Part shown: piece after piece, positions 1,234-47,000 of the stretch
How the letters are laid out: each line of letters starts with the position of its first letter
Position numbering within the stretch: position 1 is the first letter of the stretch
Notes under the pieces: model-generated
What the model was told of the DNA's origin: nothing
Databases searched by the model: none
What the model saw: only the letters and a program-made list of their open reading frames with translations
Source: Agelas oroides
Lineage: Eukaryota; Porifera; Demospongiae; Agelasida; Agelasidae
DNA: 64,000 bases
Reading direction: 5' to 3'
Assembly: GCA_949130485.1 (NCBI GenBank)
Contig: OX422201.1
Span: 3,198,516-3,262,515, forward strand
Translations under genes and position numbers: made by a program

Positions 1234-2577
1234 TAGGGGTCCCGACAAAAAATCCAAGAACGAACGAACTTGACTCAAGTATGCTGAAATCCAAGAACCA
1301 AGTGACCTTGTTTGTAAACTACAGTTACAATAGTTTCTATGACCTTCGTTCTTCCGTAAATAAATAAAGCGAACAGAGGGTTATGTGCCAAAATTTGGCC
1401 ATTATGGGATTTTTGATTTTATATGGGGGACTATAGATGAACATACCTTTAACAGATATCCACGCGAGTGGTCCAGCTATTTTAATACTCTACCAATGGC
1501 AAATAATCAATTGCACTGGTGTTTGCTAAATTTACTTGTCAAAAGTCACTTCAAACTATCAATTATTCTTCTATAGGAGAAATGTATTGCAACATAAAAT
1601 AACAGCTAATATAGTCTCTTGACAGCTATAAACTTGATTGGTCCAGGCAGTTTTGCACAAGATACATCAAGTGAAATCCATCAGTACCACTAGTTTCATA
1701 GCGAAGCTTCAAAAGTCACTTGAACCGAACTGCGCCCAATTTTTGGCACTTAACCCTTTCAAGTTAGGGCTCCCAACGAAAAAATCGAAGGTGCTCCGAT
1801 TTCAAATTTGTTGTACTAGAACTAACTATCTATCTGAGATATATAAAAACAGGACTATAAAAGTTGGTGCTGCAAAGCTATTTTCTGTCAATTCGTCTTG
1901 GACTTGAAAGGGTTAAGTGTCAAAAATTGGACGCAATTCGGTTCAAGTGACTTTTGAAACTTCGCTACGAAACTAGCCGTACTGATGGATTTCACTTGAT
2001 GTATCTTGTGCAAAAATGCCTGGACCACTCAAGTTTATAGCTGTTAAGAGACTATATTAGCTGTTATTTAATGTTGCAATACATTTCTCCCATAGAAGAA
2101 TAATTGATGGTTTGAAGTGACTTTTGACAAGTAAATTTAGCAAGCACCAGTGCAATTGATTATTTACCATTGGTAGAGTATTAAAATAGCTGGACCACTC
2201 GCGTGGATATCTGTTAAAGGTATGTTCATATATAACCCCCCATATAAAATCAAAATCCTATAATGGCCATATTTTGGCACATAACCTTCTGTTTGCTTTA
2301 TTTATTTTCGGAAGAACGAAAGTCATAGAAATTATTGTAACTGTATAGTTCACAAACAAGGTCACTTGGTTCTTGGATTTCAGCATACTTGAGTCAAGTT
2401 CGTTCGTTCTTGGATTGTTTGTTGGGACCCCTATTCAAGTCCAAGACGAATTGACTGAAAATAGCTTTCCAGCACCAACTTTTATAGTCCAGTTTTTACA
2501 TATCTCAGATAGATACTTAGTTCTAGTACAACAGATTTGAAATCGGAGCACCTTCGATTTTTTCGTTGGGAGCCCTA
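1234..2577. mobile_element. Composite inverted-repeat element inserted in the satellite
   Basis: The element interrupts the satellite and is flanked by a 7-bp duplication CCCACAG (1,227-1,233 and 2,578-2,584). Its ends are TAGGGGTCCC and GGGAGCCCTA. Inside, arm A (1,234 to about 1,763) is repeated inverted as A' (about 1,903-2,433), and segment B (about 1,765-1,908) is repeated inverted as B' (about 2,434-2,577). The order A-B-A'-B' makes the two inverted repeats interleave. Both A and B begin with related termini (TAGGGGTCCCGAC and TAGGGCTCCCAACG), so two related terminal-inverted-repeat elements may be nested. No transposase is encoded. The superfamily is uncertain; the termini look hAT-like but a 7-bp duplication is atypical. 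Confidence 0.85.
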
Positions 2578-7095: not shown

Positions 7096-7185
7096 CTGTC
7101 ACTCTATTATTTCGTTGTAATCATGCTGATACATAACTTGGCTCCATTATACATTGCTGTTGTCATTAATTATTTGACAGTGGAT

Positions 7186-7450
7186 TAAAATATTTGTTCA
7201 AGGGGTCCATATATTTCAGTACGGTTAAAATACTAGTTCCAGGGATGGTCCATATATTTCAACCTAGCTCTGAAATAAATGTTCCGGGGGGGTCCAAATA
7301 TTTTGAAATATATGGACCCATGGGAGACCAACAATTTCAGAGGGGTCCATATATTTCAACCTACCTGTGAAATATATGTTCTGGGGGGTCCAAATATTTC
7401 GAAATATAAGGACCGGGGGGAACCTTTTTTGGGGGGTCCAAATTTTTCAT
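7186..7450. repeat. Tandem palindromic GGGGTCCA-type repeat
   Basis: Two or more diverged units carry GGGGTCCATATATTTCA and its inverse TGAAATATATGGACCC. Units are separated by G-runs such as CCGGGGGGGTCCAAATATTT. The stretch lies between the Ginger1 stop codon and the truncated LINE. It looks like part of a fold-back or MITE element; no coding potential is seen. Confidence 0.6.
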
Positions 7451-7465
7451 GACAGCCCATCACAG

Positions 7466-9762: not shown

Positions 9763-9813
9763 CCCAACTTGGGATACTCTCCTAGAAAGGAGGTTACAAA
9801 GACGAAGAAGAAG
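9745..9813 (+). other. LINE 3' hairpin and (GAA)n tail, copy 1
   Basis: After the ORF2 stop comes GGGATACTCTCCT-AGAA-AGGAGGTTACAAAG, whose CTCCT/AGGAG arms can pair around a 4-nt loop. A (GAA)n tail follows. The same hairpin and tail sit at the end of the second copy, so this is probably the 3' structure recognised by the family's reverse transcriptase. Confidence 0.65.
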
Positions 9814-9871
9814 CATCACAGTCTGAAATAATTTTATCCCGTAAGAAGGGGTCATACAAAAGGTTATCCTA

Positions 9872-12800
9872 TCACAGGTTCTCCACGGTGGTTAAATGAG
9901 CTTTCTTGGTGATTACTGGCACTTACACAGGCTTGCAAAAACTTCACACCACCTCCGCAGTGGTTAAAACTGCTTTCTCGATCCTTCCTGGAACTTAACC
10001 AGGCCTGCAAAAGATTCACAGCATTTCCGCAGTGGTGAAAACTGCCTTCTCGATCCTTTCTGGCACTTAAACAGGCTTGCACGAAGTTCACAACACCTCC
10101 GCAGTGGTGAAAACTGCTTTCTCGATCCTTCCTGGCACTAAAACAGGCCTGCACGAGCTTCACACAACCTCCACAGTGGTGAAAACTGCTTTGTCGATCC
10201 ATCCTGGCACTAAAACAGGCCTGAACGAGCTTCACACAACCTCCACAGTGGTGTAAACTGCTTTGTCGATCATTCCTGGCACATATACAGGACTCCACGA
10301 GCTCCACAGGTCATCCATGGTGGTTAAACAGCTTTCTCAATGTTTCCTGGCACTTAAACAGGCTTAGAGCTTTCTCGATGTTTCCTGGCACTCAAACAGG
10401 CCTGCACAAGATTCACAGCACTTACGCAGTGGTGAAAACTGCTTTCACGATCCTTCCTGGCTCATAAACAGGACTACACGAGCTTCACAAGTTTCCACCA
10501 TGGTTAAAACTACTATCTCGGACCTTTCTCACGCTTGAACCGGCCTGCACGAGCTTCACAGAACCTCAACAGTGGTGAAAACTGCCTTCACAATCTTTCC
10601 TGGCACTTATACAGGCCTCCACGAGCTTCACAGGTCATCCACGGTGGTTAAAACAGCTTTCTCGATGTTTCCTTGCACTTGAACAGCCCTGCACCAGCTT
10701 CACTGAAACTCCACAGTTGTGAAAACTGCTTTCTCGATCTTTCCTGGCACTTATTATACAGGCTTCCACGAGTCTCACAGGTTCTCCACGGTTGTGAAAA
10801 CAGCATTCTCGATGCTTCCTGTCACTTAAATAGGCTAGTACGAACGTCACAGCACCTTCCCAGTGGTGAAAACTGCTTTCTCGATGTCTCCTGGCCGTTA
10901 AACAGGCCTGCACGAGCTTCACAGAACCTCTACAGTGGTGAAAACTGCTTTCTTGATCTTTCCTGGCATCTAATCCGGCCTCCACGAGCTCCACAGGTCA
11001 TCCACGGTGGTTAAAACTGCTTTCTCGGTGTTTCCTGCCACTTAAACAGGCTTGCACGAGATTCACAGCACCTTAACAGTGGTGAAAACTGCTTTCTCGA
11101 TCCTTCCTGCCACTTAAACAGGCCTGCACGAGCTTCACAGAACCTCCACAGTGGTGAAAACCGACTTCTTGATCTTTCCTGGTATTTAAACATGCCTACA
11201 CGAGCTTCACAGGTCTCCACAATGGTTAAAACTACTATCTAGGACCTTTCACGCACTTAAACAATCCTGCAGCAGCTTCACAGAAACCCCACAGTTGTGA
11301 AAACTGCTTTCTCGATGATTCCTGGCACATAAGCAGGCTTGCACGAGCTTCACAGAACCTCCACAGTGGTGAAAACTGCTTTCCTGATCTTTCCTGGCTC
11401 ATAAACAAGCCTACACGAGCTTCACAAGTTTCCACGATGGTTAAAACTACTATCTCGTACCTTTCCCGCGCTTAAACAGGCCTGCACGAGCTTCACAGAA
11501 CCTCAACAGGGGTGAAAACTGCTTTCACGATCTTTCCTGGCACTTAAACAGGCCTCCACGAGCTTCACAGATGATCCACGGTGGTGAAAACTGCTTTCTC
11601 GATCTTTCCTGGCACTTATACAGGCTTTCACGAGTCTCACAGGTTCTCAACGGTTGTGAAAACAGCTTTCCGAATGCTTCCTGGCACTTAAACAGGCTAG
11701 AACGAAGCACCTTCCCAGTGGTTAAAAGTGCTTTCTCGATGTCTCCTGGTATATAAACATGCCTACACGAGCAGCACAGGTCTCCACAATGGTTAAAACT
11801 ACAATCTCGGACCTTTCACGCACTTAAACAGGCTTGCAGGAGCTTAACAGAACCACCACCGTGGTGAAAATTGCTGTCTCGATGTTTCCTGGCGCTTAAC
11901 CAGGCTTGCACGAACTTCACAGAACCTCCACAGTGGTGAAAACTGCTTTCTCGATCTTTCCTGGCATTTATACAGGCCTCCACGTGCATCACAGGGTCTC
12001 CACGGTGGTTAAAAGAGCTTTATCGATGTATCCTGGCACTTAACCAGGCTTGCACGAACTTCACAGAACCCCCACAGTGGTGAAAACTGCGTTCTCGATG
12101 TTTCCTGGCCCTTAATCAGGCTTGCACGAGATTCACAGCTCCTCTGCAGTTGTGAAAAGTGCTTTCTCGACCCTTGCTGGCATTGAAACAGGCCTCCACG
12201 AGCTCCTAAGGTCATCCACGCTGGTTAAAACAGCTTTCTCGATGTTTCCTGGCACTTTAAACAGGCCTGCACGAAATTCACAGCACCTCCCCAATGGTGA
12301 AAAGTGCTTTCTCGTTCCTTCCTGCCACTTAAACAGGCCTTCACGAGCTTCACAGAACCTCTACAGTGATCTTTCCTGGTATACAACATGCCTACACGAG
12401 CTTCACAGGTCTCCACAATGGTTAAAACTACAATCTCGGACCTTTCCCGCACTTAAACAGGCCTGCAGGAGCTTCACAGAACCCCCACCGTGGTGAAAAT
12501 TGCTTTCTCGAAGTTTCCTGGCGCTTAACCAGGCTTGCACGAACTTCACAGAACCTCCATAGTGGTGAAAACTGCTTTCTCGATCTTTCCTGGCACTTAT
12601 ACAGGCCTCCACGTGCATCACAGGTTCTCCACGGTGGTTAAAAGAGCTTTCTCGATGTATCCTGGCACTTAACCAGGCTTGCACGAAATTCACAGAACCC
12701 CAACAGTGGTGAAAACTGCTTTCTCGATGTTTCCTGGCACATAAACAGGCCTGCACGAGCTTTACAGCACCTTTCCAGTGGTGAAAGCTGCTTTCTTGAT

Positions 12801-15800
12801 GTCTCCTGGCCCTTAATCAGGCTTGTACGAGATTCACCGCACCTCCGCAGTAGTGAAAAGTGCTTTCTCGATCCTTCCTGACATTTAATCTGGACTCCAC
12901 GAGCTCCACAGGTTATCCACGGTGGTTAAAACAGCTTTCTCGATGTTTCGTGGCAATTAAACCGGCCTGCACGTGATTCACAGCACCTCCCCAGTGGTGA
13001 AAACTGATTTCTCGATCATTTCTGCGACTGAAACAGGCCTTCGCGAGCTTCACAGGTTTCCACAATGGTTGAAACTACTATCTAGGACCTTTTACGCACT
13101 TAAACAATCCTGCAGCAGCTTCACAGAAACCCCACAGTGGTGAAAACTGCTTTCTCGACGATTCCTGAAACTTAAGCAGGCTTGCACGAACTTCATAGAA
13201 CCTCCACAGCGGTGAAAACTGCTTTCTCGATCCTTTCTGCGACTTAAACAGGCCTGCGCGAGCTTCACAGGTCTCCACAATGGTTGAAACTACTATCTCG
13301 GACCTTTCACGCACTTAAACAATCCTGCAGCAGCTTCACAGAAACCCCACAGTGGTGAAAACTGCTTTCTCGACGATTCCTGAAACTTAAGCAGGCTTGC
13401 ACGAACTTCACAGAACCTCCACAGTGGTGAAAACTGCTTTCTCGATATTTTTTGGCACATAAACAGGCCTGCACAAGATTCACAGCACTTCCGCAGTGGT
13501 GAAAACTGCTTTCTCGATCCTTCCTGGCACCTAATCATGTCTGCACGAGCTTCACACAAACTCCACAGTGGTGAAAACTGCTTTCTCGATCTTTCATAGC
13601 ACTAATACAGGCCTCTACGTGCTTCACAGGTTCTCCTCGGGGATTAAATCAGCTTTCTCGATGTTTCCTTGCACTTAAACAGGCCTGCACGAGCTTCACA
13701 GAAACTCCACAGTGGTGAAAAACACTTTCCTGATCTTTCCTGGCTCATAAATAAGCCTACACGAGCTTCACAAGTTTCCACGATGGTTAAAACTACTATC
13801 TCGTACCTTTCCCGCGCTTAAACAGGCCTGCACGAGCTTCACAGAACCTCAACAGTGGTGAAAATTGCCTACACGATCTTTCCTTGCACTTATACAGGCC
13901 TCCACGAGCTTCACAGGTCATCCACGGTGGTTAAAACAGCGTTCTCGATGTTTCCTTGCACTTAAACAGCCCTGCACCAACTCCACAGTGGTGAAAACTG
14001 CTTTCTCGATCTTTCCTGGCACTTATACAGGCTTCCACGAGTCTCACAGGTTCTCCACGGTTGTGAAAACAGCTTTCTCGATGCTTCCTGTCACTTAACC
14101 AGGCTAGTACGAACCTCACAGTACCTTCCCAGTTGTGAAAACTGCTTTCTCGATGTTCCCTGACCGTTAAACAGGCCTGCACGAGCTTCACAGAACCTCC
14201 ACAGTGGTGAAAACTGCTTTCTCGATCTTTCCTGGCACTTATACAGGCCTCCACGTGCATCACCGGTTCTCTACGGTGGTTAAAAGAGCTTTCTTGATGT
14301 ATCCTGGCACTTAACCAGGCTTGAACGAACTTAACAGAACCCCAACAGTGGTGAAAACTGCTTTCTCGATGTTTCCTGGCACATAAACAGGCCTGCACGA
14401 GCTTTACAGCACCTTCCCAGTGGTGAAAACTGCTTTCTCGATGTCTCCTGGCCCTTAATCAGGCTTGCACGAGATTCACCGCACCTCCGCAGTTGTGAAA
14501 AGTGCTTTCTCGATCCTTCCTGGCATTTAATCTGGACTCCACGAGCTCCACAGGTCATCCACGGTGGTTAAAACAGCTTTCTCGATGTTTCCTGGCAATT
14601 AAACCGGCCTGCACGTGATTCACAGCACCTCCCCAGTGGTGAATACTGATTTCTCGATCATTTCTGCGACTGAAACAGGCCTGCGCGAGCTTCACAGGTC
14701 TCCACAATGGTTGAAACTACTATCTAAGACCTTTCACGCACTTAAACAATCCTGCAGCAGCTTCACAGAAACCCCACAGTGGTGAAAACTGCTTTCTCGA
14801 CGATTCCTGAAACTTAAGCAGGCTTGCACGAACTTCACAGAACCTCCACAGTGGTGAAAACTGCTTTCTCGATCCTTTCTGCGACTTAAACAGACCTGCG
14901 CGAGCTTCACAGGTCTCCACAATGGTTGAAACTACTATCTCGGACCTTTCACGCACTTAAACAATCCTGCAGCAGCTTCACAGAAACCCCACAGTGGTGA
15001 AAACTGCTTTCTCGATCTTTCCTAGCACTAATGCAGGCCTCCACGAGCTTCACAGGTCATCCACGGTGGTTAAAACAGCTTTCTCGATGTTTCTTGGCAC
15101 TTAAACAGCCCTGCACCAGCTTCACAGAAACTCCACAGTGGTGAAAACAGCTCCCTCGATGTTTCCTGGCACTCAAACCGGCCTGCACAAGATTCACAGC
15201 ACTTCCGCAGTGGTGAAAACTGTTTTCACGATCCTTCCTGGCACATAAACAGGCCTGCACGAGCTTCACAGGTCATCCACGGTGGTTAAAACAGCTTTCT
15301 CGATGTTTCCTGGCATTTAAACAGCCCTGCACCAGCTTCACAGAAAGTCCACAGTGGTGAAAACTGCTTTCTCGATGTTAGCTGGCAATTATACAGGCTT
15401 CCACGAGTCTCACAGGTTCTCCACGGTTGTGAAAACAGCTTTCTCGATGCTTCCTGTCACTTAAACAGGCTAGTACGAACCTCACAGCACCTTCCTAGTG
15501 GTGAAAAGTACTTTCTCGATGTCTCCTGGCCGTTAAACAGGCCTGCACGAGCTTCGCAGAACCTCCACAGTGGTGAACACTGCTTTCTCTATCTTTCCTG
15601 GCACTTATACAAGCCTGCATGTGCTTTACGGGTTCTCCACGGTGGTTAAAAGAACTTCACAGCACCTCCACAGTGGTGAAAACTGCCTTTTCGATCTTTC
15701 CTGGCACATATACAGGACTCCACGAGCTCCACAGGTCGTCCACGGTGGTTAAAACAGCTCTCTCGATGTTTCCTGGCACTCAAACAGGCCTGAACAAGAT

Positions 15801-18549
15801 TCACAGCACTTCCGCAGTGGTGAAAACTGTTTTCTTGATGATTCCTGGCACTTAAGCAGGCTTGCACGAGCTTCACAGAACCTCCACAGTGGTGAAAACT
15901 GCTTTCTCGATGTTTCCTGGCACATAAACAGGCCTGCACAAGATTCACAGCACTTCCGCTGTGGTGAAAACTGCTTTCTCGATCTTTCCTAGCACTTATT
16001 AAAGCTTCCACGTGCTCCAAAGGTTCTCCACGGTGGTTAAAAGAGCTTTCTCGATGTTTGCTGGCACTTAAACAGGCCTGCACGAGCTTCACAGAAACTC
16101 CACAGTGGCGAAAACTGCTTTCTCGATCTTTCCTGGCACTTATACAGGCTTCCACGAGTCTCACAGGTACTCAACGGTTGTAAAAACAGCTTTCCGGATG
16201 CTTCCTGGCACTTAAACAGGCTAGCACGAACCTCACAGCACCTTCCCAGTGGTGAAAACTGCTTTCGCGATGTCTCCTGGCCGTTAAACCGGCCTACACG
16301 AGCTTCACACAACCTCCACAGTGGTGAAAACTGCTTTCTTGATCTTTCCTGGTATATAAACATGCCTACACGAGCTTCACACTTAATCAGGCTTACACGA
16401 GATTCACAGCACCTCCGCAGTTGTGAAAAGTGCTTTCTCGATCTTTCCTGGTACTTATACAGGCCTCCACGAGCGTCACAGGTCATCCACGGTGGTTAAA
16501 ACAGCTTTCTCGATGTTTCCTGGCACTTAAACAGGCCTGCACGAGCTACACAGAAACTCCACAGTGGTAAAAACTGTTTTCTTCATCTTTCCTGGCTCAT
16601 AAACAGGCCTACACGAGCTTCACAAGTTTCCACGATGGTTAAAACTACTATCTCGGACCTTTCCCATGCTTCAACAGGCCTGCACGAGCTTCACAGAACC
16701 TCAACAGTGGTAAAAACTGCCTTCACGATCTTTCCTGGCACTTATACAGGCCTCCACGAGATTCACAGGTCATCCATGGTGGTTAAAACAGCTTTCTCGA
16801 TGTTTCCTGGCACTTAAACAGGCCTGCACGAGCTTCACAGAATCTCCACAGTGGTGCTTTCTCGATCTTTCCTGGCACTTATACAGGCTTCCACGAGTCT
16901 CACAGGTACTCAACGGTTGTAAAAACAGCTTTCCGGATGCTTCCTGGCACTTAAACAGGCTAGCACGAACCTCACAGCACCTTCCCAGTGGTGAAAACTG
17001 CTTTCGCGATGTCTCCTGGCCGTTAAACCGGCCTACACGAGCTTCACACAACCTCCACAGTGGTGAAAACTGCTTTCTTGATCTTTCCTGGTATATAAAC
17101 ATGCCTACACGAGCTTCACACTTAATCAGGCTTACACGAGATTCACAGCACCTCCGCAGTTGTGAAAAGTGCTTTCTCGATCTTTCCTGGTACTTATACA
17201 GGCCTCCACGAGCGTCACAGGTCATCCACGGTGGTTAAAATAGCTTTCTCGATGTTTCCTGGCACTTAAACAGGTCTGCACGAGCTACACAGAAACTCCA
17301 CAGTGGTAAAAAGTGTTTTCTTCATCTTTCCTGGCTCATAAACAGGCCTACACGAGCTTCACAAGTTTCCACGATGGTTAAAACTACTATCTCGGACCTT
17401 TCCCATGCTTCAACAGTCCTGCACGAGCTTCACAGAACCTCAACAGTGGTAAAAACGGCCTTCACGATCTTTCCTGGCACTTATACAGGCCTCCACGAGA
17501 TTCACAGGTCATCCATGGTGGTTAAAACAGCTTTCTCGATGTTTCCTGGCACTTAAACAGGCCTGCACGAGCTTCACAGAAACTCCACAGTGGTGAAAAC
17601 TGCTTTCTCGATGTCTCCTGGCCGTTAAACAGGCCTGCACGAGCTTCACAGAACCTCCACAGTTCTTTCCTGGCATATAAACATGCCTACACGAGCTTCA
17701 CAGGTCTCCACAATGGTTAAAACTACTATCTCGGACCTTTCACGCACTTAAACAATCCTGCAGCAGCTTCACAGAACCCCCACCGTGGTGAAAACTGCTT
17801 TCTCGATTATTCCTAGCACTTAACCAGTTTTGTACGAGCTTCACAGAACCTTCACAGTGGTGAAAACTGCTTTCTCGATCTTTCCTGGCATTTAATCCGG
17901 TCTCTACGAACTCCACAGGTCATCCACGGTTGTTAAAACAGCTTTCTCGATGTTTCCTGCCACTTAAATAGGCCTGCACGAGATTCACAGCACCTCAACA
18001 GTGGTGAAAACTGCTTTCTCGATGTCTCCTGGCACATAAACAGGCCTGCACAAGATTCACAGCACTTCCGCAATGGTGAAAACTGCTTTCTCGATCTTTC
18101 CTGGCATTTAATCCAGCCTCCACGAGCTCCACAGGTCATCCTCGGTGGTTAAAACAGCTTTCTCTTAAACAGGCCTGCACGAGCTTCACAGAAACTCCAC
18201 ATTGGTGAAAACTGCTTTCTCGATCTTTCCTGGTACTTATACAGGCCTCCACTTGCATCACAGGTTCTCCACGGTGGTTAAAGGAGCTTTCTCGATGTAT
18301 CCTGGCACATAAACAGGCCTGCACAAGATTCACAGCACTTCCGCAATGGTGAAAACTGCTTTCTCGATCCTTCCTGGCATTTAATCCGGCCTCCACGAGC
18401 TCCACAGGTCATCCTCGGTGGTTAAAACAGCTTTCTCGATGTTTCCTGGTACTTAAACAGGCCTGCACGAGCTTCACAGAAACTCCACAGTGGTGAAAAC
18501 TGCTTTCTTAATCTTTCCTGGTACTTATACAGGCCTCCACGTGCTTCAC
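9872..18549. repeat. 72-bp satellite array, block 3 (largest)
   Basis: About 8.7 kb of the 72-bp satellite, roughly 120 monomers, without foreign insertions. Higher-order structure is clear. A unit of about 739 bp (10 monomers plus a 19-bp remainder) is duplicated at about 16,120-16,855 and 16,860-17,590 with few differences. A second long-range repeat links about 12,970-13,560 with 14,600-15,000. The 50 bp just before the block (9,822-9,871) is not satellite and continues the sequence that preceded LINE copy 1. Confidence 0.95.
16120..17590. repeat. 739-bp higher-order repeat, two near-identical copies
   Basis: Every base pattern from about 16,120 recurs 739 bp downstream, including the rare variants GAGTCTCACAGGTACTCAACGG and a truncated monomer in which CACTTAATCAGGC follows GAGCTTCA directly. 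Only about five substitutions were noticed in some 730 bp, far fewer than between ordinary neighbouring monomers, so this is a recent segmental duplication. Confidence 0.85.
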
Positions 18550-20439: not shown

Positions 20440-23400
20440 ATGGACGGACGTAAAACCCTTATCAGAGTAGGGTGTCATAATGTGAGAGGACTCAAAACCA
20501 ACACTGCATACACCCATGCTTGTATCTCCAACTTAGACGTCTTTGCAATTTCTGAACACTGGCTCCATTCCTTCGAACTCAACCAACTTGCTGCTTTTCA
20601 TCCTGAATTCAGCTTCCATGCTGCATCCCATCCCACTGACGAAGACACAACTTACTGTATCCCACGTGTCATCAGAGGCCAAGGAGGGGTTGCAATTGCC
20701 TGGCGAAAATCCCTGAACCACCTTATCTGCAAGCTCCCTCATATCTCCAACAGAATTGTCGGCATCCAACTACTAACTGCAGGTCGCCCAACCTGCCTTT
20801 TGTCTGTTTACCTCCCCACAAGATCTGGAGCCACCGACGAATTTAAGGAGGCACTCGACCTCCTGGATGCAACTCTTGGCCTCTACGGTCTTGACAACGA
20901 TGTATATATTCTAGGAGACCTTAATGCAGACCTGGGGACAGAAGGGGGCTCTCAAGCATGTACACCTGCCAACGAGCATGGCCGCATCTTACTCCGACAT
21001 CTACGCAGATGGAAGTATTTGTCTTATCACCTTCATCTTAGTCCCTCTCAGACCACCCACACAAGAGAGTGAAGCACATGGTTCCCTATCCACCATTGAC
21101 CACTTCCTTGGTCCATCACACATGCTCTCTTCCATCTCCAAGTGTGTAGTGGCTGAAGAAGACCCTATTAACACCTCAGACCATCTTCCAATCCTGGCAC
21201 AGATGGAGCTTTGCTTCCACCCAAACGCAGCACCCAGCCCTGTAGAGCCACAGAACCAGACACATTCTAAGCCAAACTGGGACAAACTCTCACCTATGGA
21301 GATAGAAGCTCTCTACACAGTACCCATAGAGGAACAACTCAGCCAAATAAAGTGCCCAACCCTGGAAGAGTGTCTGGAAAATCCAACACTTATCGATCAG
21401 CATCTCACCACCCTAACAACACTGATGCTGCAGACAGCTTACAATTCCATCCCACTTAAAAAGTACTCCCCTCACAAAAAGCAGGGTTGGGATGACAAAC
21501 TTCGCCAGGCACAGCGAGCTGCCCAACAGGCTTATAAAGTGTGGAGGGCTGCTGGCAAACCCAGGAACTCAGACCATCCTGTGCGCAATCATTACAAATC
21601 CTCTAAGGGAAGATTACGCTCTCTTCTAAGACAACGCAAAAGGGAAGAACGTGAAAACTTCTTTGCTTCTCTAGACCTTCACAACACTGATCCTTGGAAA
21701 CTTTTTGTACCATCCGACAGAAGAATGGCCACCAAATGGTCCCCACCACTCAACTAGTCTCTAGAGGAAAGACCTATGAAGGCCCTGAGATCATGGACGG
21801 CTGGAAAACTCACTTCCAAGATCTTGCTTCCCCAACTCCATCCTCCTCCTTTGATGACACCTTCCACCCCACCATCACTGCGGAATTCCAACACCTACTC
21901 ACCATCCCACCTGGTGAAGACGTCACAGTATCTCCAGGTGAAGTAGCCAGGGCCGTTGAATCACTTGCCTCCAACAAAGCACCTGGTCCAGATGAGGTCG
22001 AGGCTGAGCACCTGCATTTTGGAGGGCCCTCCCTCAATATACATTTGACCAACACCTTTAATGCCATACTTGCCACTGGACACATCCCTGCATCCTTCTT
22101 GCACGGCCACGTAATACCCATCCCCAAAGGCCATGACAGGGACCTACGTGATCCATCCAACTACAGAGGCATGTCTCTGCTGTCATCCATCAGTAAGGTC
22201 CTTGAGAAGGTGCTCATCAATATCATCTCACCAGATATATCACTAAATCCACTGCAAGGTGGCTTCAGGTCTGGATACAGCTGTCTTCACACCGCCTACA
22301 TTTTACAAGAGGCCATCCAACACACAAGAGAACGAAGCAAGAAAGCATATGTTGCCTTTCTAGATGCCAGGAAAGCCTTTGATACTGTGTGGCACGAAGG
22401 TCTCTTTGTTAAGCTTCACAACAAGGGACTCCCCATGCACATATGGCATCTACTCTATACATGGTACAAGAACTCTTCCTGCTCTGTTGCCTGGAACAAC
22501 GCCACCTCTGCCAGCTTCTCCATTCACAAAGGTGTCAGACAGGGTGCGATCCTCTCACCTCTTCTCTACTCCATCTTCGTTGACGAACTCCTCGACCTCC
22601 TCTCCATCTCAGGACTTGGAGTGAGAGCGAATTCCATTTACATCGGAGCACCTATGTACGCTGATGACCTTGCCTTAATTGCAGAATCTCCTCAAGAACT
22701 CCAAGCCATGCTAAACATCGTACACTCCTATGCAGGGAAATGGCGTTACAACCTAAACGCATGCAAGTCATTCATCATGGTCTTTGGAGAGTCTCCTCGT
22801 TCAAGAACTCAAGCAAGATCCTTACGGGAATGGCACCTAGGGAGTGAGAAAGTGCAAGAAGCAGATGAGATGCACCATCTTGGGATCCTCCGATCAGTCT
22901 CCTTCTCCACCTTGTCACGCACCACAGAGCGGAGCACAGCAGGGAGAAGTGCATTCTTCGCACATAACGCTGTAGGATCCAGGTTTGGATGTCTACACCC
23001 TGTCACATCATACAAACTCTACTCGACTTTATCCATCCCCATCATGCTCTATGGCTCAGAATTGTGGTCACTCACCAGTACCGAACTGAACATTCTTGAG
23101 CGCACCCACCGTAAGATCCTCCGTACCATCCAAGGCCTCCCTATCAGATGTCCAGCGGCAGCCCTCCAGAGCCTGATTGGCTCCCATTCCATTTTATCCT
23201 ACATCTCCCAACGACAGCTGGCTTTCATAAACTCCATCATCAACATGCAAGCCAGTGACCTCCCCAAGCAGCTGCTCGAAGCCAGAGTTGTAAACCCCAG
23301 AGCTAAAGGAATCACTGTCACCTGGGGAAACCTCCTTGACGAGCTCTGCCTCCCCTCCATCAAACAGCTTCTTAGTACACCCCGCAACAAAGAGACCTGG

Positions 23401-23921
23401 GAACGATCAATCAAACGGCTCCTGAACATCCGAGCATACATCACCATGCTAGACCAATGCAAGGAATATCCCCTAGGTGACTGTGATTTACCGATTGGAA
23501 GACCCGCCCCACACTGGACCGTCACCCTCCAGGACACCCACACAACCCGTAGGAACAACTTTCGCATCCGCCTTCTAGTAGGGTGCGACGGGCTAGAAGC
23601 AGATGCCAGTCGCTTTCGATGGAGGAAAGATCGCAGCCAACCTAATAACCCCACCTGCAAACTCTGCCACTCCGAGCCCGAAGACCCCCTCCACTTCATA
23701 GCCAAATGCCCGGCCCTCTCACCTGTCCGATCTCGCCTTCTAAGTGCTACCCCGAAACGATAAAACCGCACCTCCCAGACCTGGAAGCAGACCCACTGCG
23801 ATTCGCCGAGGTTGTACTCGGCCTGGAATGGATTAAGGACACGCCCACCCAAATGTTTATCATCGATTTCCTGACCCAACTAAAGAGCGCCCGCAGCTCT
23901 CTGATTCTCCGTTCGGACTAG
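20440..23921 (+). pseudogene. LINE ORF2: APE endonuclease + reverse transcriptase + CCHC knuckle (frameshifted)
   Basis: The endonuclease runs from ATG 20,440 (HNVRGLK, ISEHWL with the catalytic Glu, ILGDLNADLG). It shifts frame near 21,050 before STIDHFLGPS and ends with the SDH box (TSDHLPI). A second shift near 21,700-21,750 leads into the RT. RT blocks are SNKAPGPDE, DPSNYRGMSLLSS, GGFRSGYS, AFLDARKAFDTVWH, GVRQGAILSPLLYS and the active site MYADDLALIAES, followed by the thumb. The C-terminal knuckle is CKLCHSEPEDPLHFIAKC. A third shift at about 23,755 separates the last 50 codons (WIKDTPTQMFIIDFLTQL), which match copy 1. Catalytic residues are present, so the loss of function is by frameshifts. 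Confidence 0.9.
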
Positions 23922-25519: not shown

Positions 25520-26378
25520 CTATCGTTGGTACTACGTTGCCATTGACAAGAAAGCTGCAGAGGAGTCGTGTGGGGAACAGAACCGTGAGTTGTTTATCGA
25601 CATAAGGGGGAGAGGTGGGGCTAGTAATGCTTGCTTCCACTCGTGAATGAGCCCCTCCCGTAGACAAGCTGTGAATTTTTTGGAATGTGCATTCATTTTG
25701 GTGCAGTCAAAGTTGTCCATTCCAAGAGTAGTGACAAACATGAGTCTAGCCTGACTTTGAGAGTAGCTCTGAACCAAAGCTGGCACAGACTGATTTGAGA
25801 TACATTGGTGGTTAGAACGCTACCTACAGTGAGCATGTAGATGCGTCCATCGAGTGGCAATTTTGGGTCATGAATATATTAATAAGCTACTAAAACCCTT
25901 TTTTAAAATTAGGCGAAGCAAGATTGCCCTAAACCAAACCCTAACCCTGAAATTAGGAGTAACACTGGTCCTGACTGTAACCCAGGTTTATGTTTTCGTT
26001 AACCTCCGCCGAGTGACTTCCACCGCCACCTTAAGAGTTCACTGGGATGAATGTCTTTACCAGAAATGTCTCTTTTTCCAACAGAGGTTATATCATTTAC
26101 AATGAGAAAAACCACTCAGCATGGGTAGTCTCCTGATAGACAGAATTTTCCAGTCGAAATCGGCACATATTTGTTGCATGCATGTAGCTTCACTGTCAAC
26201 TTCTAAAACTGTTTTTGATCAGGTCTAAACAAGATGCAACAATAATCCACATAGATTACAGCCTCCTAGCAGGTTGATTGCAATTAAGGTGTATGTGATT
26301 TCATCTAGGTAACATACTACAGTAACCACTCAGGATATACTTCATATTATTCACATTGACACTGTTTGTATACTTCAG
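25520..26378. other. No recognisable gene; presumed upstream intron of the ATPase-PHD gene
   Basis: The first recognised exon at 26,379 starts with an acceptor, so earlier exons must lie upstream, but none could be identified here. Short ORFs at 25,532-25,786 (minus) and 25,854-26,105 (plus) show no domain or splice-consistent context. Confidence 0.4.
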
Positions 26379-29300
26379 CTGGGGCTATACTCTCCTTACA
26401 CTATGAGTCGGTTAGCAAGTGGTGTGGGAGTGTTGCAGTACCCGTTGTCTATGGTCGTCACAGCCGGGGGAAGAGCAATTTTGTGAAGATTGTGCTGGCT
26501 GTCTGTGGCAACCTAGAGAAGGGTGTGGCCACTTACCTGAGTGCGAGCAGTACTTGTATGAAAGTGGGAGCATCACTTCCGTTTGCCTATGACGACCCAA
26601 GCAATAGTGAAGCCAAATTCAAACAAATGATAATCGAGGCATTTGGCGGAGCATCAGTTGAGCATGCAAGGTGGCAGGTGACAGCTCGATGTGTCCCACT
26701 GATAACAGCAAATGAATTCATCATAGATAAACCTGCGGATGAACCAAGGTAGGTGTAAAATGTCAAACTACACGTCAATGCCATGTGATAAACATGGAAA
26801 ATTTTAATGTGAATATCACCATTCATTGTAGGACATTACAAACCATTTGTCTCATCTTGAGCAGGTGTCTCTTGCTACCATGTGTCACCAATTCACCAGA
26901 TGTTGAGCTAGATGTGCTGAATGGAATACTGAACAAAGCAGTGGCAGCTCTCCCACATGCCCTGCGGGTTGGGAAAGCAGTATTGGAAATGGAAGCAGCT
27001 GACATCTATCACATTCGTGACCGCATACAGGAATTATGCACCGTGAAGCTCACAGACTCACGTCTCACTACTCACTATGCCATCATAACAGCCTGCACCT
27101 TGCAAGTAGGTGGTTCTTTCAGTAATGTCGGATGCAAGTTTGTGCTTTAGCTACATATCATTGCTGCCTTTGTAGATCATTGATGAAGTCCCAAATGATT
27201 GGGTGTCCAAGGAAGATGTGTGGGAATACCTACAGGAAGCTTTGCTGCCCGAAGTTGCAAGCAGACAGGTGCAGCAAACCAAGCCAACATCATTGGAGAA
27301 CATGTTAGGGGTGGTAGCAGATCTTGTGGATGACAAGCATGCCACACTTTCCCTCCCCGAAGTGAGATCCTACTTGTACTAGTAACTGCCACATTATGCA
27401 TGATTGTCCAATGGATTTCCACTTGACCACCTTGGTGCAAACAGAGCATAGTACTTCAGTGTATCCTCCCAAAGCATGTACTACATAACATGGGCTAATG
27501 CCCACTTGTAGGTTTTGACAGTTGTGAACCCTCGCGTGAGATTTGCCCCACGTCGAGGCATGCCATTGATAAAGGGGGTGGCTGTGTCTCTGAAGCTGTT
27601 TCTGAAACTGCTGGAGAAGCATGGTGTTGAGTACCCAGAGGAAAAGGTTATTCGTCAACAGCTTAGCCCCCGCCAAGATGCCACCACGAGGTCAAAATCA
27701 TTCTTCTTGAAGCAAAATGTTAACCTCACAAGGATTGACAGGGGTATGGCTGTACAAGGATCAACTGTACCCTTGACATGTGTATGTGTCTCGCAACGAT
27801 GCATTCCACAAAACACGTTGGACATACTGATGGATACTAAAGGTATAATGTGGTAAATACAAGTAAAACATTCCTGCTCCAATGCTGATCATGCTATGAC
27901 TACATGGCAGAGGTGTATTACTTCTCTTACAAAGCATTTCTTCTCACTGATAGTGCACACTGCTGCTGATGATGATGATCGTGAAGAGAATCTAGGAGGT
28001 GATAGTGAAGATGAGAATGGTTCCATGTCAGGTATTTGAATATGAAACTTGTGTCCTTGGGAGGGAAGGGTGGGGGGGATTGTGTTATGTTTCAAGTACC
28101 CACTAAGGTGTAGCTATGTGCTTTGTTTGTATATACATATGCACACTTATTGATTTTAGTATTTAGCATAGAATGAACAATCTGAGCAATCTTCAAACTT
28201 CATCATACTTTTTGCAACATTTTGACCCCGAGGGGCCTTCTTCAGGCAGTACAATACTGGGCACGCACTTTACTAAGCAGACCGATTGGAGAAAGGAAAT
28301 ACAGAAAGTATGATGAAGTTTTGTGCATTCAAAGATTGCTCAGATTATTCACTCACGAATATCTACGCTTATGTACACGTACAATCTTCAGCCTGAGAGA
28401 CTGGATGTTCAAGGTCTAGACAAATTGGAGAAGTTTGTGTTCTGTGCTCTATTTGGTCAATGGTAACTGCATATTACCCAAACACTGCAACGACTGCTTG
28501 TTGTCACATTCATGCAACCTGAAATATGTAGCCCTTGTATGTAAATCTGTTTTTTACTGCGCATGCTATATAAAACTATAGGGCGATACAAGAGAAGGAA
28601 AACCTCTCTAATTTCTGATGAAGGATCGACCGAAAATGAAGCTAGAGACACTGCATAGTTACGTATATACACCAAACATCATGAAAGTTGTTGCTCATGT
28701 AGAACATGATAGTGATGGTGAGGAGAGCGGACAATCAACTTCGACCAGCCACAATCAGCCCCAGGTGACCAGTTGCAACTGGTTGCTCACTTCTGATGCT
28801 CAGTCAGCCAGCCATGCCTCTACATCAAAGTCATCTGCTCCTCAGTACACACTACAAACCTTTTCTCCTAAACATACCAAACAGAGGAGATACTTAGTGG
28901 CATCTCCATGCAGGAGGGGTTTGATGAGGTACACTGTAATAATCAGCAAGTACATGTAAAGGTGAATGCACTACCTTAAGATCCATGTTACATTTTTTGA
29001 TTTGTCAGGCAACGGACTTCACCTAAGACCAAACAGTTGTTCAAACCTGTTCACCGGCACCTAAAGAGGAAAAATACAACTGGTATGATCACATCCAGAT
29101 CAAATACGTACATTTGTTTTTGATGGATGTAATGGGGACATTGGTTACACCTAGCAATTCTTCTGTCCTGTGTGTGCCCAGGAAAACCATCACCGAAAAA
29201 AGGTTCCAAATAATTCCAGTGGAGCTGTCACTGGCTCCCTGGCAGGTAACAATAACCAGTATTATTTAGTATCTTTTGTTCTAAAATTTTCCTTTCTTAT

Positions 29301-30372
29301 ACAGCTTTGAATCATGGAAAGTCAACCACCTGTGCCCAGATGACAGTAGAGGCAACCCAGTCAATCCAGGGCCAGGCCCTTGAATTTCCATCAGCCAGTT
29401 GCTCTCAGCCTCAGACTCCACCACCTCCGCTGACTAGCAACACTCAGCCCCACACTCCTCCCTCTCCGTTCACTAGCAATTAACACTCAGCCCCAGACTC
29501 CTCCATCTCGGTTCACAAGCAACACTCAGCCCCAGACTCCTCCATCTCGGTTCACAAGCAACAGTCAGCCCCAGACTCCTCCATCTCGGTTCACTAGCAG
29601 TGCTCAGCCTCCACCATCGCTGGCTAGCAACACTCAGCCCCAGACTCCTCCATCTCCAATGGCCAGTACCACTGTTCCCAGTTTTCGTAAATGTAGCAAG
29701 AAAGTGACATCATATGTGATTGCATCTCCATCTAGGAAAGTGCTCATGAGGTATGCCTACAGAATAGTGATTTATGACAACAATACAACAGTTTGCATAG
29801 ATAACTTTATTTTTGTGCAGACAACGAATTTCCCCAAAGAAGGCAACACCTACAAAATCCATAGTCCATCCACTGCGCCGTCGCCTTAGATTCACAAAGA
29901 AGAATGCAGCAGGTAGGTAGTCAGCAAAGTTACTACAGGGCATGCTGATTTCCTTGCATTAGCAGTATGGATATGTCCTCAAAATTAATCACAAACTGCA
30001 GTGCATGTGAGTGCCTGAATTAGTACTAAGTCTTCTTAAGATTGATTTCAAGATACTTTTGCTGTCTTGTTTTATTTTTTTTTCTTATTTAGCATACCTG
30101 AATAAACTACGAAACACTGCGAAGGACTTGGATAATGGGAATGATGGTAAGTACATTTAATATCCATGTATAATACAGTATAATTGTCCGTCACTGTGTA
30201 TTACATAGAAATCTGGCACTGTGGGATGTGCCTGTCCACATATGATGCAAGCGGAGAAGATTGGTGGGTGGAGTGTGACAAATGCCCCTGCTGGTATCAT
30301 TCCATGTGTGTGAGGCTAAAAAGAAATCCAGGAGCTCGGAGGTGGTTTTGTCCTGCCTGCAAGAGACATTAG
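26379..30372 (+). CDS. Unrecognised P-loop ATPase with C-terminal PHD finger (11 exons, 5' incomplete)
   Basis: Exons by GT-AG sites and phase: 26,379-26,748; 26,832-27,105 (or from 26,865); 27,176-27,361; 27,512-27,842; 27,954-28,031; 28,703-28,928; 29,009-29,082; 29,305-29,750; 29,821-29,912; 30,093-30,146; 30,209-30,372. Exon 1 has a Walker A (GRHSRGKS), a likely Walker B (LPFAYDDP) and a sensor-like PLITANEF, the spacing seen in SF3/AAA+ helicases and DUF927-type ATPases. Exons 2-4 give a mainly helical domain. The middle is acidic, then Ser/Pro/Thr-rich and basic. The last exon is a C4HC3 PHD finger (CGMC, CDKC, YHSMC, FCPAC). A 4-bp TTAA insertion at 29,480-29,483 stops the frame; all other phases agree. 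The protein could be a TE-encoded or domesticated chromatin ATPase. The family was not recognised and the start was not found. Confidence 0.72.
28171..28352. repeat. Fold-back repeat in an intron of the ATPase-PHD gene
   Basis: CTGAGCAATCTTCAAACTTC near 28,178 is mirrored by GAAGTTTTGTGC...AAGATTGCTCAG near 28,315-28,345, and ATCATACTTT by AAAGTATGAT. The arms flank GACCCCGAGGGGCC. It is a probable small fold-back element, with no coding seen. Confidence 0.55.
29390..29660 (+). repeat. 39-bp coding minisatellite in exon 8 of the ATPase-PHD gene
   Basis: Units of 39 bp encode TSNTQPQTPPSRF-type 13-residue repeats, four to six copies with some length variants. The TTAA insertion lies in the first unit. 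Confidence 0.8.
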
Positions 30373-30579
30373 TTCTAGTGCATAGCTTATACTTGCATTT
30401 TCCCCTTGAGTTGTGTTCTGCTATAGTTACCATGTTATTGTTGCAGCATATATTGTTTACTCATCTATATACCCATAAAGCAGCACATGCGCTCCTTCAT
30501 AATGGTTTTGCAGTTTCCCTCAATGTCAATGAGATACTGGAAAAACGTGGAATAACAGAACAATGTAATGGAACAACGG

Positions 30580-30585
30580 AATAAA
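30580..30585 (+). promoter_or_regulatory. Possible polyadenylation signal of the ATPase-PHD gene
   Basis: AATAAA lies about 210 bp after the stop codon of the PHD exon. It is the first such hexamer seen downstream on that strand. Confidence 0.35.
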
Positions 30586-30739
30586 AAGCTTCAAAGGTTA
30601 TTGCTACTGACCATGCAAAGCAAGTATGCACATTCAATACAGAAGTGAGTGAGAAACAATAAAAGACCATGTATGGTAATAATTTGTTGAACACAAAAAT
30701 ACTGGACTGCGCACATGCAGAGTATGCACATGTCAAGCC

Positions 30740-31140
30740 ACACCCCTTCACTGAACTTCAGTCTACATTTGGCAGTTGCTAACTTCATATCACTTTGCCT
30801 TGGAGAGTTCACAGAGAGAAGCTATACTCATGCCAACTAGTACACTAAAGTTGGATGTGGCTCTGAAAGCCTGACTGATGCAACGCTGTTGTGGACTAAG
30901 AATTCTTGCTGGCAAAACTTTTTTGTAGTGAGAAGGGATGCCACCGATCTGTCCACTACTGTTTACCTGGGTAAGCGGTAATTGTCGAGGCCCTAGTAGA
31001 ACAAGGGTACTAATTAGCCTTAGAGTGCAGGCGAGTATTGTAGGCTTTTATAGGCAGTTCTGTAGCTAGCTAGATATGCATGATTGATGATTTAATGTTA
31101 TAATGTTGTCCTAAAAGCTTGACGACTTACCTCGATATAT
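30740..31140. repeat. Dispersed repeat, copy 1 (partner at 33,340)
   Basis: This runs from CACCCCTTCACTGAACTTCAG to AGCTAGATATGCATGATTGATG. It shares order and sequence with 33,340-33,720 (CTTCACTGATCTTCAGTC ... CTAGATATGCATGATTGATG) at moderate identity. No ORF is present. It is probably a non-autonomous element family. Confidence 0.6.
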
Positions 31141-31143
31141 ACC

Positions 31144-31314
31144 CTTCATATGAACATGTTTGCTTCATGTGAACACCTTCCCTTCATGTGAACACCTTCC
31201 CTTCATGTGAACATCTTCCCTTCATGTGAACATGTTCCCTTCATGTGAACATCTTTGCTTCATGTGAACATGTTCCCTTTGTGAGAACACGTTCCACTCA
31301 TGTGAACATGTTGC
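31144..31314. repeat. 19-bp tandem repeat with GAACATGTTC palindromes
   Basis: Nine consecutive 19-bp units of CTTCATGTGAACATGTTCC type start at 31,144. Variants change the second half to CACCTT or CATCTT. Several units contain the palindrome GAACATGTTC. Confidence 0.88.
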
Positions 31315-31750
31315 CTTCATGTGATTATTTCAACATGTTTTCTTCATGTAAACGTTCATGAACATCTCATAGCTTTCTGAACAAGATCTGTTAACATGTT
31401 ATGGCCATGTATTTCAGGTTATTAATGTGTACCCTCTTCTCTGGCATGCAAACACCTCCTAGAAATGTCCTGCATGATACACAATTTTGATGAACACTCT
31501 GCAGTACGCTTGAACCAGAACATCATTGTTCACGTGAACGTTCACATCATGTACTCCAGAAAACGTCTCCTAAAATCGTGCATGGTATCTGCTCAGTAGC
31601 AACTACATTGCAGCCACCCACAACATAACACACTCTTCATGCACATCAACATGCACTACACACCTAGCACTACCCTCCCCACTGCCTTCTACAACCCTCC
31701 GATGCACACAACTAACAAACGCAAAGCATAGTTGGCAAAATGACACAAGA

Positions 31751-44000: not shown

Positions 44001-47000
44001 TTCCCTTTTTGCGCTTAGACACTGTCCAAGATGTGGTAACCACACTCTGTGATAAGCGTGGAAGCTTCTAACAGCTGCAGTGAAGCTGAACTCCAGGTCG
44101 TCTTCTCGAGCTTGTGTACACCATGTGGCGTGGCCGTTCAGTTAAATAGAACGGGTAAGAAAATTCAAAATTCAGCACGTTCAATGAATTAGGAAGGAAA
44201 CAAATATGCCATTCGAGCTATTAGAATGTTTGGATAATTAGAGTGAGTATGGTACTCTTCAAAATACTTCCTGGCTGGAGTTCATGCACTATGTACTTTC
44301 TCACATTAAGTATGGTGTTTTTTTTTGCCAGCATGAAGTCACTACCATATAAATGGAAATTTTCAAGGTATAAAAATTTCACCAGCTCATCAAAATAACT
44401 GGTTTTCACACTTTCATGGGTACGGACCACTTTCCTGGCAAGTTTCCAGGTTGCTAGAATGCTGACTAGTAGAGACAACAGAATATCATTTTTGTTCACA
44501 TGTTCAGTTCACTAACAGTGCTTATAACAATCGTCTGAAGTTCCTTATTGTCAAAAATCATCCGAGGGACCGCTACTGTTTCAGTTGCAGTATTCCTGGT
44601 GATGCAATCATAAGGTACAAGTACTAGAGTATGGCACGGGTCATGCATGGTGGTGCCATGTGACCTTACATGAATGGGACATTATCAGCCTCATCTGTGT
44701 CAATAGTAGCCTTGTACCCAGGCAGGGGAGGAGCCTGGGTAGTGGTATTAGCTGCATATTGAGTAGTACTGCTGCCTTCATATAGCTCACATGATTATTG
44801 TGTATAAAATGGTTTGTACTCTGTGTCATGTTTAGTCTGTTCAGTTGTTATTGTTTATTATCAAGACAGCCAAACCTATCTGCTAGTAAGCGACGGCGAA
44901 CGGTACATGGTGTCAGAAGTGGGATGGCCGGTACACGCTTACAACCTCCCGAGCCGTTCGACTTCAAGCAGCCAGATGAGTGGACTCGCTGGAAGCGTAG
45001 GTTTGAGCAGTACAGGGTCGCCTCCGGATTGGCGGAGGAAGGTGAAGCTCGCCAGGTGTGCACTCTGCTGTACTGCATGGGAGAGGAGGCGGGAGACGTG
45101 CTGACGACCACCAAAATAGAGGAGGCTGACAGAAAGAAGTATGACAAGGTCATTGACAAGTTTGACGGATTCTTCAAAGTGCGGCGGAACACTGTCTTCG
45201 AGCAAGCGAAATTCAATCGCCGGATGACGAATCAGTTGAGCAGTACATAACAAGTGCTGTTCCACCTACAGGAAACATGCGACTTCGGAGACGGGGCTCT
45301 TGCAGACGAGCTGCTCCGTGATAGGATCATTGTTGGCATCCGAGATACCAAACTTGCCGAGACCCTGATGCTGGATCCAGACATGAGCTTGGACAAGGTC
45401 ATGCGAGCCGTGAGACAAAAGGAGGCTGTCCACGAACAGAACAGACAACTGAAACGTGGTACCCAGGAGGACCCCATTGTTGTCGATCATGTCGGTTGCA
45501 GCGGCAAGCCACAGAAACCGCTGGGGCCCAGAGTTCATGAGAAGGAGGAAGCCAGAAACAGGACAAAGAGACCGCAAAACCACGGCCTATGCAAACGATG
45601 TGGGAAAGACCATGCCCCCACAGCCAGAGGAGATGGGGGAGGGTGTGCGTCCCTATGCTCTCTTTACCCCCAGGAACGTCCCCATACCGCTGTGGTCCAA
45701 GGTCAAGGAAGAGCTGGAACGGATGGAGAGGCTTGGGGTGATAACTAAGGTGACCCAGCCAACACCATGGTGTGCCGGGATGGTGGTTGTCCCAAAAAAG
45801 TCCGGTAGTGTGAGGATCTGCGTGGATCTCAAGCCACTGAACGAGGGGGTGCTCCGAGAGACCTACCCTATTCCTCCTGTCGATGACATGCTTGCACAAC
45901 TTGCTGGAGCCACAGTCTTCTCCAAGGTCGATGCCAACTCAGGCTTTTGGCAAATCCCGCTGGCAAAGGACTCGCAGCTGTTGACAACCTTCATCACCCC
46001 ACATGGACGCTACTGCTTCCAGAAACTCCCATTTGGCATATCCAGTGCACCCGAGCTATACCAGCGCAGAATGTCCCAGATCCTGTCGGGGCTAGGCGGT
46101 GTTCTCTGTCACATTGATGATGTCCTCATCTACGGCAGCACTACAGAGGAACACGACACTCGTCTCCGTGCAGCGCTCTCTCGTCTCCAGACAGCGGGTG
46201 TCACACTCAATGCAGATAAGTGCCTATTCTCACAAACCAGTATCCATTTCTTAGGTCATGTCATTGACAAGAACGGGGTGCACCCAGATCCAGAGAGAAT
46301 CACCGCAGTACAGAAAATGGAGGCTCCCAAAGACCTCACACAACTACGGAGGTTCATGGGTATGGCGAATCAGCTGGGCAAGTTCACTCCTAACCTCTCC
46401 ACTCTTAGTCAACCACTCAGAGAACTGATGAGCACCAAGAGATCGTGGTGCTGGGGCCAACCACAGCAGGAGTCATTTGAGCAAGTGAAGCTGGAGCTGA
46501 CGAGACCGACAGTCCTTACACTGTACAACCCGAATGCTCCCACCAAGATCTCAGCTGATGCCTCGGCATATGGGCTCGGAGCAGTACTCCTCCAGGAAGT
46601 GGAATCTGCTTGGAGACAGGTCATCTATGTGTCCCGCTCACTATCAGATACGGAGAGACGGTACGCACAGATTGAGAAGGAGGCTCTGGCTGTCACATGG
46701 GCATGCAGCAAGTTTGCCAACTACATCCTCGGTAGACCATTCCTGATCGAGACTGATCATAAACCTCTTGTGCCCATATTGAGCACTAAACATCTAGACG
46801 ATCTACCCCCGCGTGTTCTCAGGTTTCGTCTCAGGCTTGCCAGGTTCAACTATACCATCATGCATACGAACGGCAAATTGCTGTATACTGCAGACACCTT
46901 GTCACGCGTACCTCAACCAACAGAAGACCACGATCTCCTAGATGAAGCCGAATCCTTTGTGGAGGCGGTTGTGAGCACCCTACCTGCTACCACACAGCAA

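Follow-up and report, generated by a model that had tools for sequence, protein, structure and literature searches.

Several described systems combine a transposase or a replication helicase with features met at the locus reported here. Tn7 and Mu each encode an ATPase (TnsC and MuB, respectively) that adjoins the transposase. KDZ (Kyakuja-Dileera-Zisupton) DNA transposons are likewise known, and passages of PMC12730594 report 8-bp target duplications for Zisupton and TET/JBP dioxygenases carried by fungal KDZ relatives; Zisupton elements have also been found in a nematode (PMC9297572). RAG2, as described in part of PMC4411706, consists of a propeller and a PHD finger, and the ancestral TransibVDJ transposon is there inferred to have encoded a transposase together with a Kelch-PHD protein. 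Among helicases of mobile elements, staphylococcal Cch, which bears DUF927, is a relative of the self-loading Rep helicases, and Cch2, a different helicase, needs an iteron (both from passages of PMC7581432). Here we describe exons of a P-loop ATPase and of a PHD finger in 64,000 nucleotides of DNA from the sponge Agelas oroides (the window, C19:3198516-3262515; the genome searched comprised 259 Mb in 141 contigs, denoted C1, C2 and so on). These exons form the second gene (gene 2) of a KDZ-class DNA transposon that carries two genes, is bounded by short terminal inverted repeats (TIRs) and makes 8-bp target duplications; they belong to a multi-copy element and not to a host gene.

The family has imperfect TIRs of about 20 bp and two genes on one strand. 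Copies with both ends measure 11.9 kb on C3 and 13.4 kb on C1, and the copies on C21 and C1 are 98.7% identical across 9.2 kb, with unrelated flanks. In all six copies in which it was read, the 3' end is identical (...GTATC). The TIRs of the C3 subfamily are GCTCCCGGATTTGCGAACG and GATCCCCGATTTGCGAACG; their pattern matched the genome 22 times (11 per strand) against 0 for the reversed control, giving nine convergent pairs and four single ends, with six of the nine pairs representing one insertion multiplied by duplication. The pattern of the window's own subfamily (up to three mismatches) gave nine matches and none in the control, namely at the 3' ends of the copies on C1, C2, C21, C19 (window) and C10, at the 5' ends of those on C1, C2 and C21 with three mismatches each, and at one further place on C22. 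The C1 element, which is of the same subfamily as the window copy, occupies 5776442-5789885, has the TIRs CATATGATGCACGATTTTAGGA and GATACAATGCACGATTTTAGGA, and is flanked on each side by AAATCGCC. Duplications of 8 bp were also read on C11 (ATAAGGAG), on C17 (ATCCTACT) and around an insertion shared by contig ends (GCCGCGAG in five of six pairs, with one base different on C18), so that four of the five independent two-ended insertions (C11, C17, the subtelomeric one and C1) carry one. A Helitron reading, considered in view of the fixed 3' end and ragged 5' ends, was abandoned given the 5' TIRs and the 8-bp duplications.

Near the ends of C5, C10, C12, C13, C18 and C20 lie six short TIR pairs with common flanks, of which the C12 element alone was read whole; they represent one insertion spread via apparent subtelomeric duplications. 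A short TIR derivative, L083, lacks the greater part of gene 2 as well as the central portion of gene 1; the ends therefore suffice in cis, and gene 2 is dispensable in cis.

Gene 1 is, judged by its domain matches, a KDZ transposase. The C3 protein (633 aa, assembled by homology guidance) contains the Pfam domain CxC5 (PF18718, 'associated with KDZ transposases') with E=1.9e-10, over the cut-off, as does the window-subfamily copy on C5 (E=1.5e-6), and the core of the C3 protein is just over the cut-off of the KDZ model PF18758 (E=3.2e-6, 27.4 bits vs 26.6). Candidate residues for the catalytic acidic triad of an RNase H fold, picked by eye, are D (HIDTW), D (YDN) and E (GEQTF). In the copies on C3 and C5 the stop codon of gene 1 precedes the ATG of gene 2, hence there are two genes. 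When C21 was compared in translation with eight diverged loci, the transposase core exon was found at six, the N-terminal exon of gene 2 at seven and the ATPase exon at all eight, in one order and on one strand. With 53 transposase loci used out of 137 match rows (one per stronger locus, hand-chosen), a transposase core lies upstream on the same strand of 12 of the 24 ATPase matches within 6 kb, and of 13 within 15 kb; at C10:4613185 the adjoining transposase is remote, with 49% identity to the query. Viewed from the transposase, 13 of these 53 places have a downstream ATPase match. We take HMGXB3 to be a domesticated relative of gene 1, a point on which the literature search gave nothing.

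The window holds the following parts of one such element, mostly exons of gene 2.

26031..31589, + strand: truncated copy of the two-gene transposon (blastn against the C1, C21 and C10 copies).
26378..26749, + strand: P-loop ATPase exon with Walker A GRHSRGKS, Walker B-like LPFAYDDP, FGG and sensor-like PLITANEF (24 genome matches; invariant columns).
26866..27104, + strand: helical exon after the ATPase (tblastn, five of eight diverged loci: C17, C3, C5, C8, C9; Ka 0.011 and Ks 0.052 against C21).
27176..27363, + strand: next coding exon, approximate boundaries (97.9% identity to C21, no indels).
27512..27822, + strand: further coding exon, approximate boundaries (four of eight diverged loci: C17, C3, C8, C9; no indels against C21).
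28590..28943, + strand: basic/serine-rich middle exon, approximate boundaries, frame broken relative to C21 (net length difference at ~28651-28684; in-frame stop).
29302..29751, + strand: proline-rich exon with 39-bp tandem repeats (array 29404-29657, Tandem Repeats Finder), frame broken relative to C21 (35-bp difference at 29480; in-frame stop).
30208..30372, + strand: C-terminal PHD finger exon and stop (Pfam PF00628, E=4.9e-7; nearest solved chains).
31142..31324, + strand: subterminal 19-bp tandem array, 9.6 copies, GTGAAC core (Tandem Repeats Finder; motif counts).
31567..31589, + strand: 3' TIR CTCCTAAAATCGTGCATGGTATC, the end of the element (same 3' end in six of six copies; TIR pattern matches).
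31590..31597, no strand: inferred surviving member of the 8-bp target-duplication pair, TGCTCAGT (the repeat in which the element sits reads ..CTGCCATGCTCAGTAGC.. in three of the four other copies read).

Of the 24 genome matches of the ATPase exon (E<=0.001), one is the query exon, three more are 87-93% identical to it and the other twenty are remoter or partial; two of the 24 hold a stop. In an alignment of eight sequences, from which near-identical copies and the second C10 copy (C10b, Walker A reading RRKS) were left out, the residues S6, Y9, G17, RGKS, DDP, FGG, R104, P107, N112 and R125 are invariant. Over 422 codons, window and C21 differ by Ka 0.031 and Ks 0.089 (Ka/Ks ~0.35; Fisher's exact test on the rounded counts, p=0.0002), and their short introns are 82-96% identical; this ratio fits purifying selection acting on the forebears of the two copies. 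The ATPase exon is thus more than a chance reading frame, because it has 24 genome matches and invariant motifs, because the order ATPase-PHD recurs in a second subfamily, and because of the Ka/Ks departure.

The PHD finger is clear in both subfamilies (PF00628, 30.1 bits in the window and 32.3 in C3, cut-off 24) and is present in the copies in the window and on C21, C3, C8, C9 and C17. The two subfamilies that retain this end of the gene have ATPases ~45% identical to each other, and in both the finger follows the ATPase in the same order and on the same strand, ~3-4 kb apart. The nearest solved chains to the fingers of both subfamilies are themselves PHD fingers, e.g. those of TAF3, ALFIN-like proteins and BPTF, and for the window finger ING PHDs are also among them; we take all of these to be H3K4me readers.

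Elsewhere in the window, one open frame at 5929-7095 (+) encodes an Ulp1-type peptidase (Peptidase_C48, E=7.3e-5) with a C-terminal PHD finger (E=5.3e-7), a second PHD-bearing gene that is possibly mobile.

The window copy itself is a 5'-truncated, frame-broken relic. By blastn, 26031-31324 matches C1 at 87.1%, whereas against C21 the match falls into 26031-29673 (87.3%) and 29404-31353 (85.1%); the tail up to 31589 is ~78% identical. The C10 copy matches 25757-26765 at 93%, its similarity starting at 25757, a shared junction and conceivable 5' end, and ~31137-31589 at ~81%; because only these two segments are common to both, the C10 copy is internally deleted. The 3' end (31589) is preserved in the window copy, which is missing its 5' terminus together with gene 1 and the opening exons of gene 2, including the upstream gene-2 exons of C21 (5101-6483). 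The TIR pattern (up to three mismatches) finds no 5' element end on C19, hence the truncation at 5'. In two exons the length differs from that of C21 by amounts not divisible by 3 (net 35 bp at ~28651-28684 and 35 bp at 29480), and the window frame hits a stop after each; these differences are unpolarised, i.e. the changed copy may be either. The 3' flank is another repeat, whose left half was not found in the window; the 8-bp size assigned to the duplication there is taken from C1 and other copies, its left partner likewise not having been found. The first-pass annotation, made from the letters alone, had recognised the ATPase exon with its three motifs, the helical exon, the further exons and the C-terminal PHD finger, all of which are confirmed, and its joining of a P-loop ATPase and a PHD finger in one gene is borne out by the recurrence of the pair in a second subfamily. 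Its description of a complete gene of eleven phase-compatible exons fails, given the missing first exons, the two frame-breaking differences and the stops. It had overlooked the relic state, the termini of the element and the KDZ gene that fuller copies carry upstream.

Upstream of the relic, at 21691-23763 (+), is a reverse transcriptase frame (RVT_1, E=3.7e-33) that we read as LINE-like; at 45453-47828 (+) lies a polyprotein with reverse transcriptase, RNase H and integrase domains, presumably Gypsy-like. A frame at 53264-55033 (+), split by one stop, contains DUF3504 (E=5.3e-27) and a phage-integrase-type tyrosine recombinase (E=3.3e-7), which we take to be of a Crypton-type element. Positions 1-17300 are minisatellite-like, with repetitive open frames on both strands.

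The affiliation of the gene-2 ATPase was approached by profile comparison, and the results suggest that it is DUF927-like, this being the closest of the three families compared. In hhalign the DUF927 profile scored 69.8% (E=4.1e-5, 5 rows) vs 0.6% for VapE (3 rows) and 5.2% for AAA_22 (6 rows), twenty column shuffles reached at most 1.2%, and with less clean rows DUF927 gave 86.7% and 74.2%. A profile search of the PDB returned 5dgk at E=0.097, the better of the only two hits within E=10; its fragment shows 100% identity to a staphylococcal 'DUF927 domain-containing protein', and we take it to be Cch. Pfam DUF927 matched two of eight members (best E=0.046) below its cut-off, and because that cut-off was missed the ATPase is filed as DUF927-like only, not as a DUF927 member. 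A search of the same genome with PF06048 gave one match (E=0.028), which could not be tied to the ATPase-PHD family. When viral contigs were searched with the C5 copy's ATPase exon as query in place of the window exon, no relative turned up, and PHROGs contained nothing convincing.

In the last 1300 bp of the window copy there are 11 GTGAAC/GTTCAC hexamers vs 0.57 expected from base composition, and in the six copies considered 11 to 36 vs ~0.4-0.6, counts that within a tandem array are not independent. At the true 5' ends the hexamer occurs four times in 300 bp of C1 and once in C3. The 19-bp array of the window is a possible set of protein-binding sites. By eye, the 3' subterminal arrays on C3, C8, C9 and C17 have, in place of the 19-bp unit, a ~60-bp unit with two TGTGAAC cores, which is a different repeat with the same core motif.

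Taken together, we consider it probable that gene 2 of this two-gene KDZ-class element encodes an ATP-driven accessory protein aiding replication or open-chromatin insertion. The transposase encoded by gene 1 would bind the ends, cut the DNA and join it. The gene-2 product, probably a DUF927-helicase-like ATPase that forms rings, would assemble on the GTGAAC-rich subterminal arrays, and its C-terminal PHD finger would hold chromatin, probably at H3K4-methylated tails, thereby aiding replication of the element or steering its insertion into open chromatin. An ATP-driven helper at the element end is proposed because the DUF927-bearing Cch is related to Rep helicases and Cch2 needs an iteron. Transposase and PHD-bearing partner might then work in the manner of RAG1/RAG2, with the ATPase replacing the Kelch propeller. 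A bolder version, to which we lend little credence, is that the element supplies its own replication initiator: a DUF927-type ring helicase, anchored to active chromatin through the PHD finger, would load on an iteron-like GTGAAC array at the element end and copy or prepare the element, making cut-and-paste transposition effectively replicative, an independent invention resembling RAG1/RAG2 but with another transposase and another partner.

A number of observations weigh against this interpretation. The DUF927 score drops to 3.7% once Walker A is masked, the link is under every library cut-off, and VapE and AAA_22, two different P-loop families, reach 86.8% when compared across 57 columns; ~70% to DUF927 is therefore no proof of kinship. 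Folded alone, the window ATPase exon gave a pLDDT of 40.7, which makes the fold uninformative. For the transposase, KDZ (PF18758) was unlisted for two of three cores and for the 633-aa full-length scan; 11 of the 24 ATPase matches, the window among them, have no same-strand upstream transposase within 15 kb, and of the 53 transposase places considered, 40 are without an ATPase match downstream. The C3 copy, both ends of which were read, lacks a target duplication. Of nine loci whose gene strand was scanned, four (C5, C20, C22, C10b) showed no PHD finger, and five short loci gave one weak partial match (L088, E=0.0095), the finger possibly lying outside the scanned stretches. Finally, the exon joins are guided by homology only.

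The alternative that survives best is that gene 2 is a target selector of the Tn7/Mu type, a TnsC/MuB-like ATPase that brings the transposase to chromatin via its PHD finger and has no role in replication. A transposon-borne ATPase adjoining a transposase and bearing a chromatin-reader domain fits such a selector, but hhalign favours DUF927 at 69.8% over the 5.2% of AAA_22, which we assume to cover TnsC-type ATPases; as the subterminal GTGAAC arrays are equally expected of an initiator, we hold target selection alone to be unlikely, if worth keeping in mind. It is quite unlikely, in our estimate, that gene 2 is a captured host passenger without a role in transposition. The existence of L083, which shows no requirement for gene 2 in cis, and the 40 transposase places lacking an ATPase match fit a passenger, whereas the conserved position and strand of gene 2 across diverged copies (N-terminal exon 7/8, ATPase exon 8/8) and the Ka/Ks of ~0.35 do not, and no host parent was recognised among those of the 24 ATPase places that were examined. 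The idea that the ATPase and PHD exons are separate adjoining genes fits the homology-guided joins and the fast-evolving middle exons, unaligned between subfamilies; the like order, strand and ~3-4 kb spacing in two subfamilies make this improbable. Domestication of the window gene, from a transposon gene into a host gene, is hardly credible, since, for all its well-kept coding exons and low Ka/Ks against C21, that signal may stem wholly from its ancestors' active period, and the copy is 5'-truncated without its first exons, carries two frame-breaking differences, retains its 3' TIR and sits in another repeat.

Compared with described systems, the two-gene KDZ-class element shares with KDZ transposons the KDZ and CxC5 Pfam domains of gene 1, the TIRs and the 8-bp target duplications, and differs from them in its second gene. 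The words 'ATPase' and 'PHD' are absent from the main text of PMC12730594, as are PHD, ATPase and helicase from that of PMC9297572. Like RAG1/RAG2, it pairs a transposase-derived protein with a PHD-bearing partner, a likeness of layout and not of descent: the transposase class is unrelated, the partner is a P-loop ATPase instead of a Kelch propeller, and the duplications are of 8 bp, as opposed to the 5 bp given for Transib in a passage of PMC4411706. Like Cch-type DUF927 helicases, the gene-2 ATPase is borne by a mobile element, and hhalign places the two Walker motifs and the sensor region of both in a common order, a likeness that is suggestive; unlike them, it has DDP and not DE at Walker B, is fused to a PHD finger and resides in an intron-bearing eukaryotic genome, and the similarity is sub-threshold. 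As with TnsC and MuB, an ATPase stands beside a transposase, with little profile similarity (AAA_22, 5.2%).

Among the papers listed by the literature searches, in which Repbase and the majority of subscription journals were not represented, none described a KDZ element paired with an ATPase-PHD protein. The first-pass annotation had proposed an undescribed system, a transposon factor or a domesticated one, with a hint of DUF927, and had suggested looking for terminal repeats around copies. Such repeats exist, as TIRs with 8-bp duplications, and the protein is transposon-borne; the domesticated option is unsupported because the gene is multi-copy and resides within elements that TIRs and target duplications delimit. 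The profile comparisons agree with the DUF927 hint at suggestive strength, the Pfam cut-off being missed, and the carrier of the ATPase-PHD partner belongs to the known KDZ class.

If our reading is true, a second, unrelated class of transposase has its own PHD-bearing partner, which would make such a partner a recurring solution alongside RAG2, and a link would exist between eukaryotic transposition and an ATPase family of helicase type, met here in mobile elements of bacteria. The two-ended copies in the same genome provide concrete starting material.

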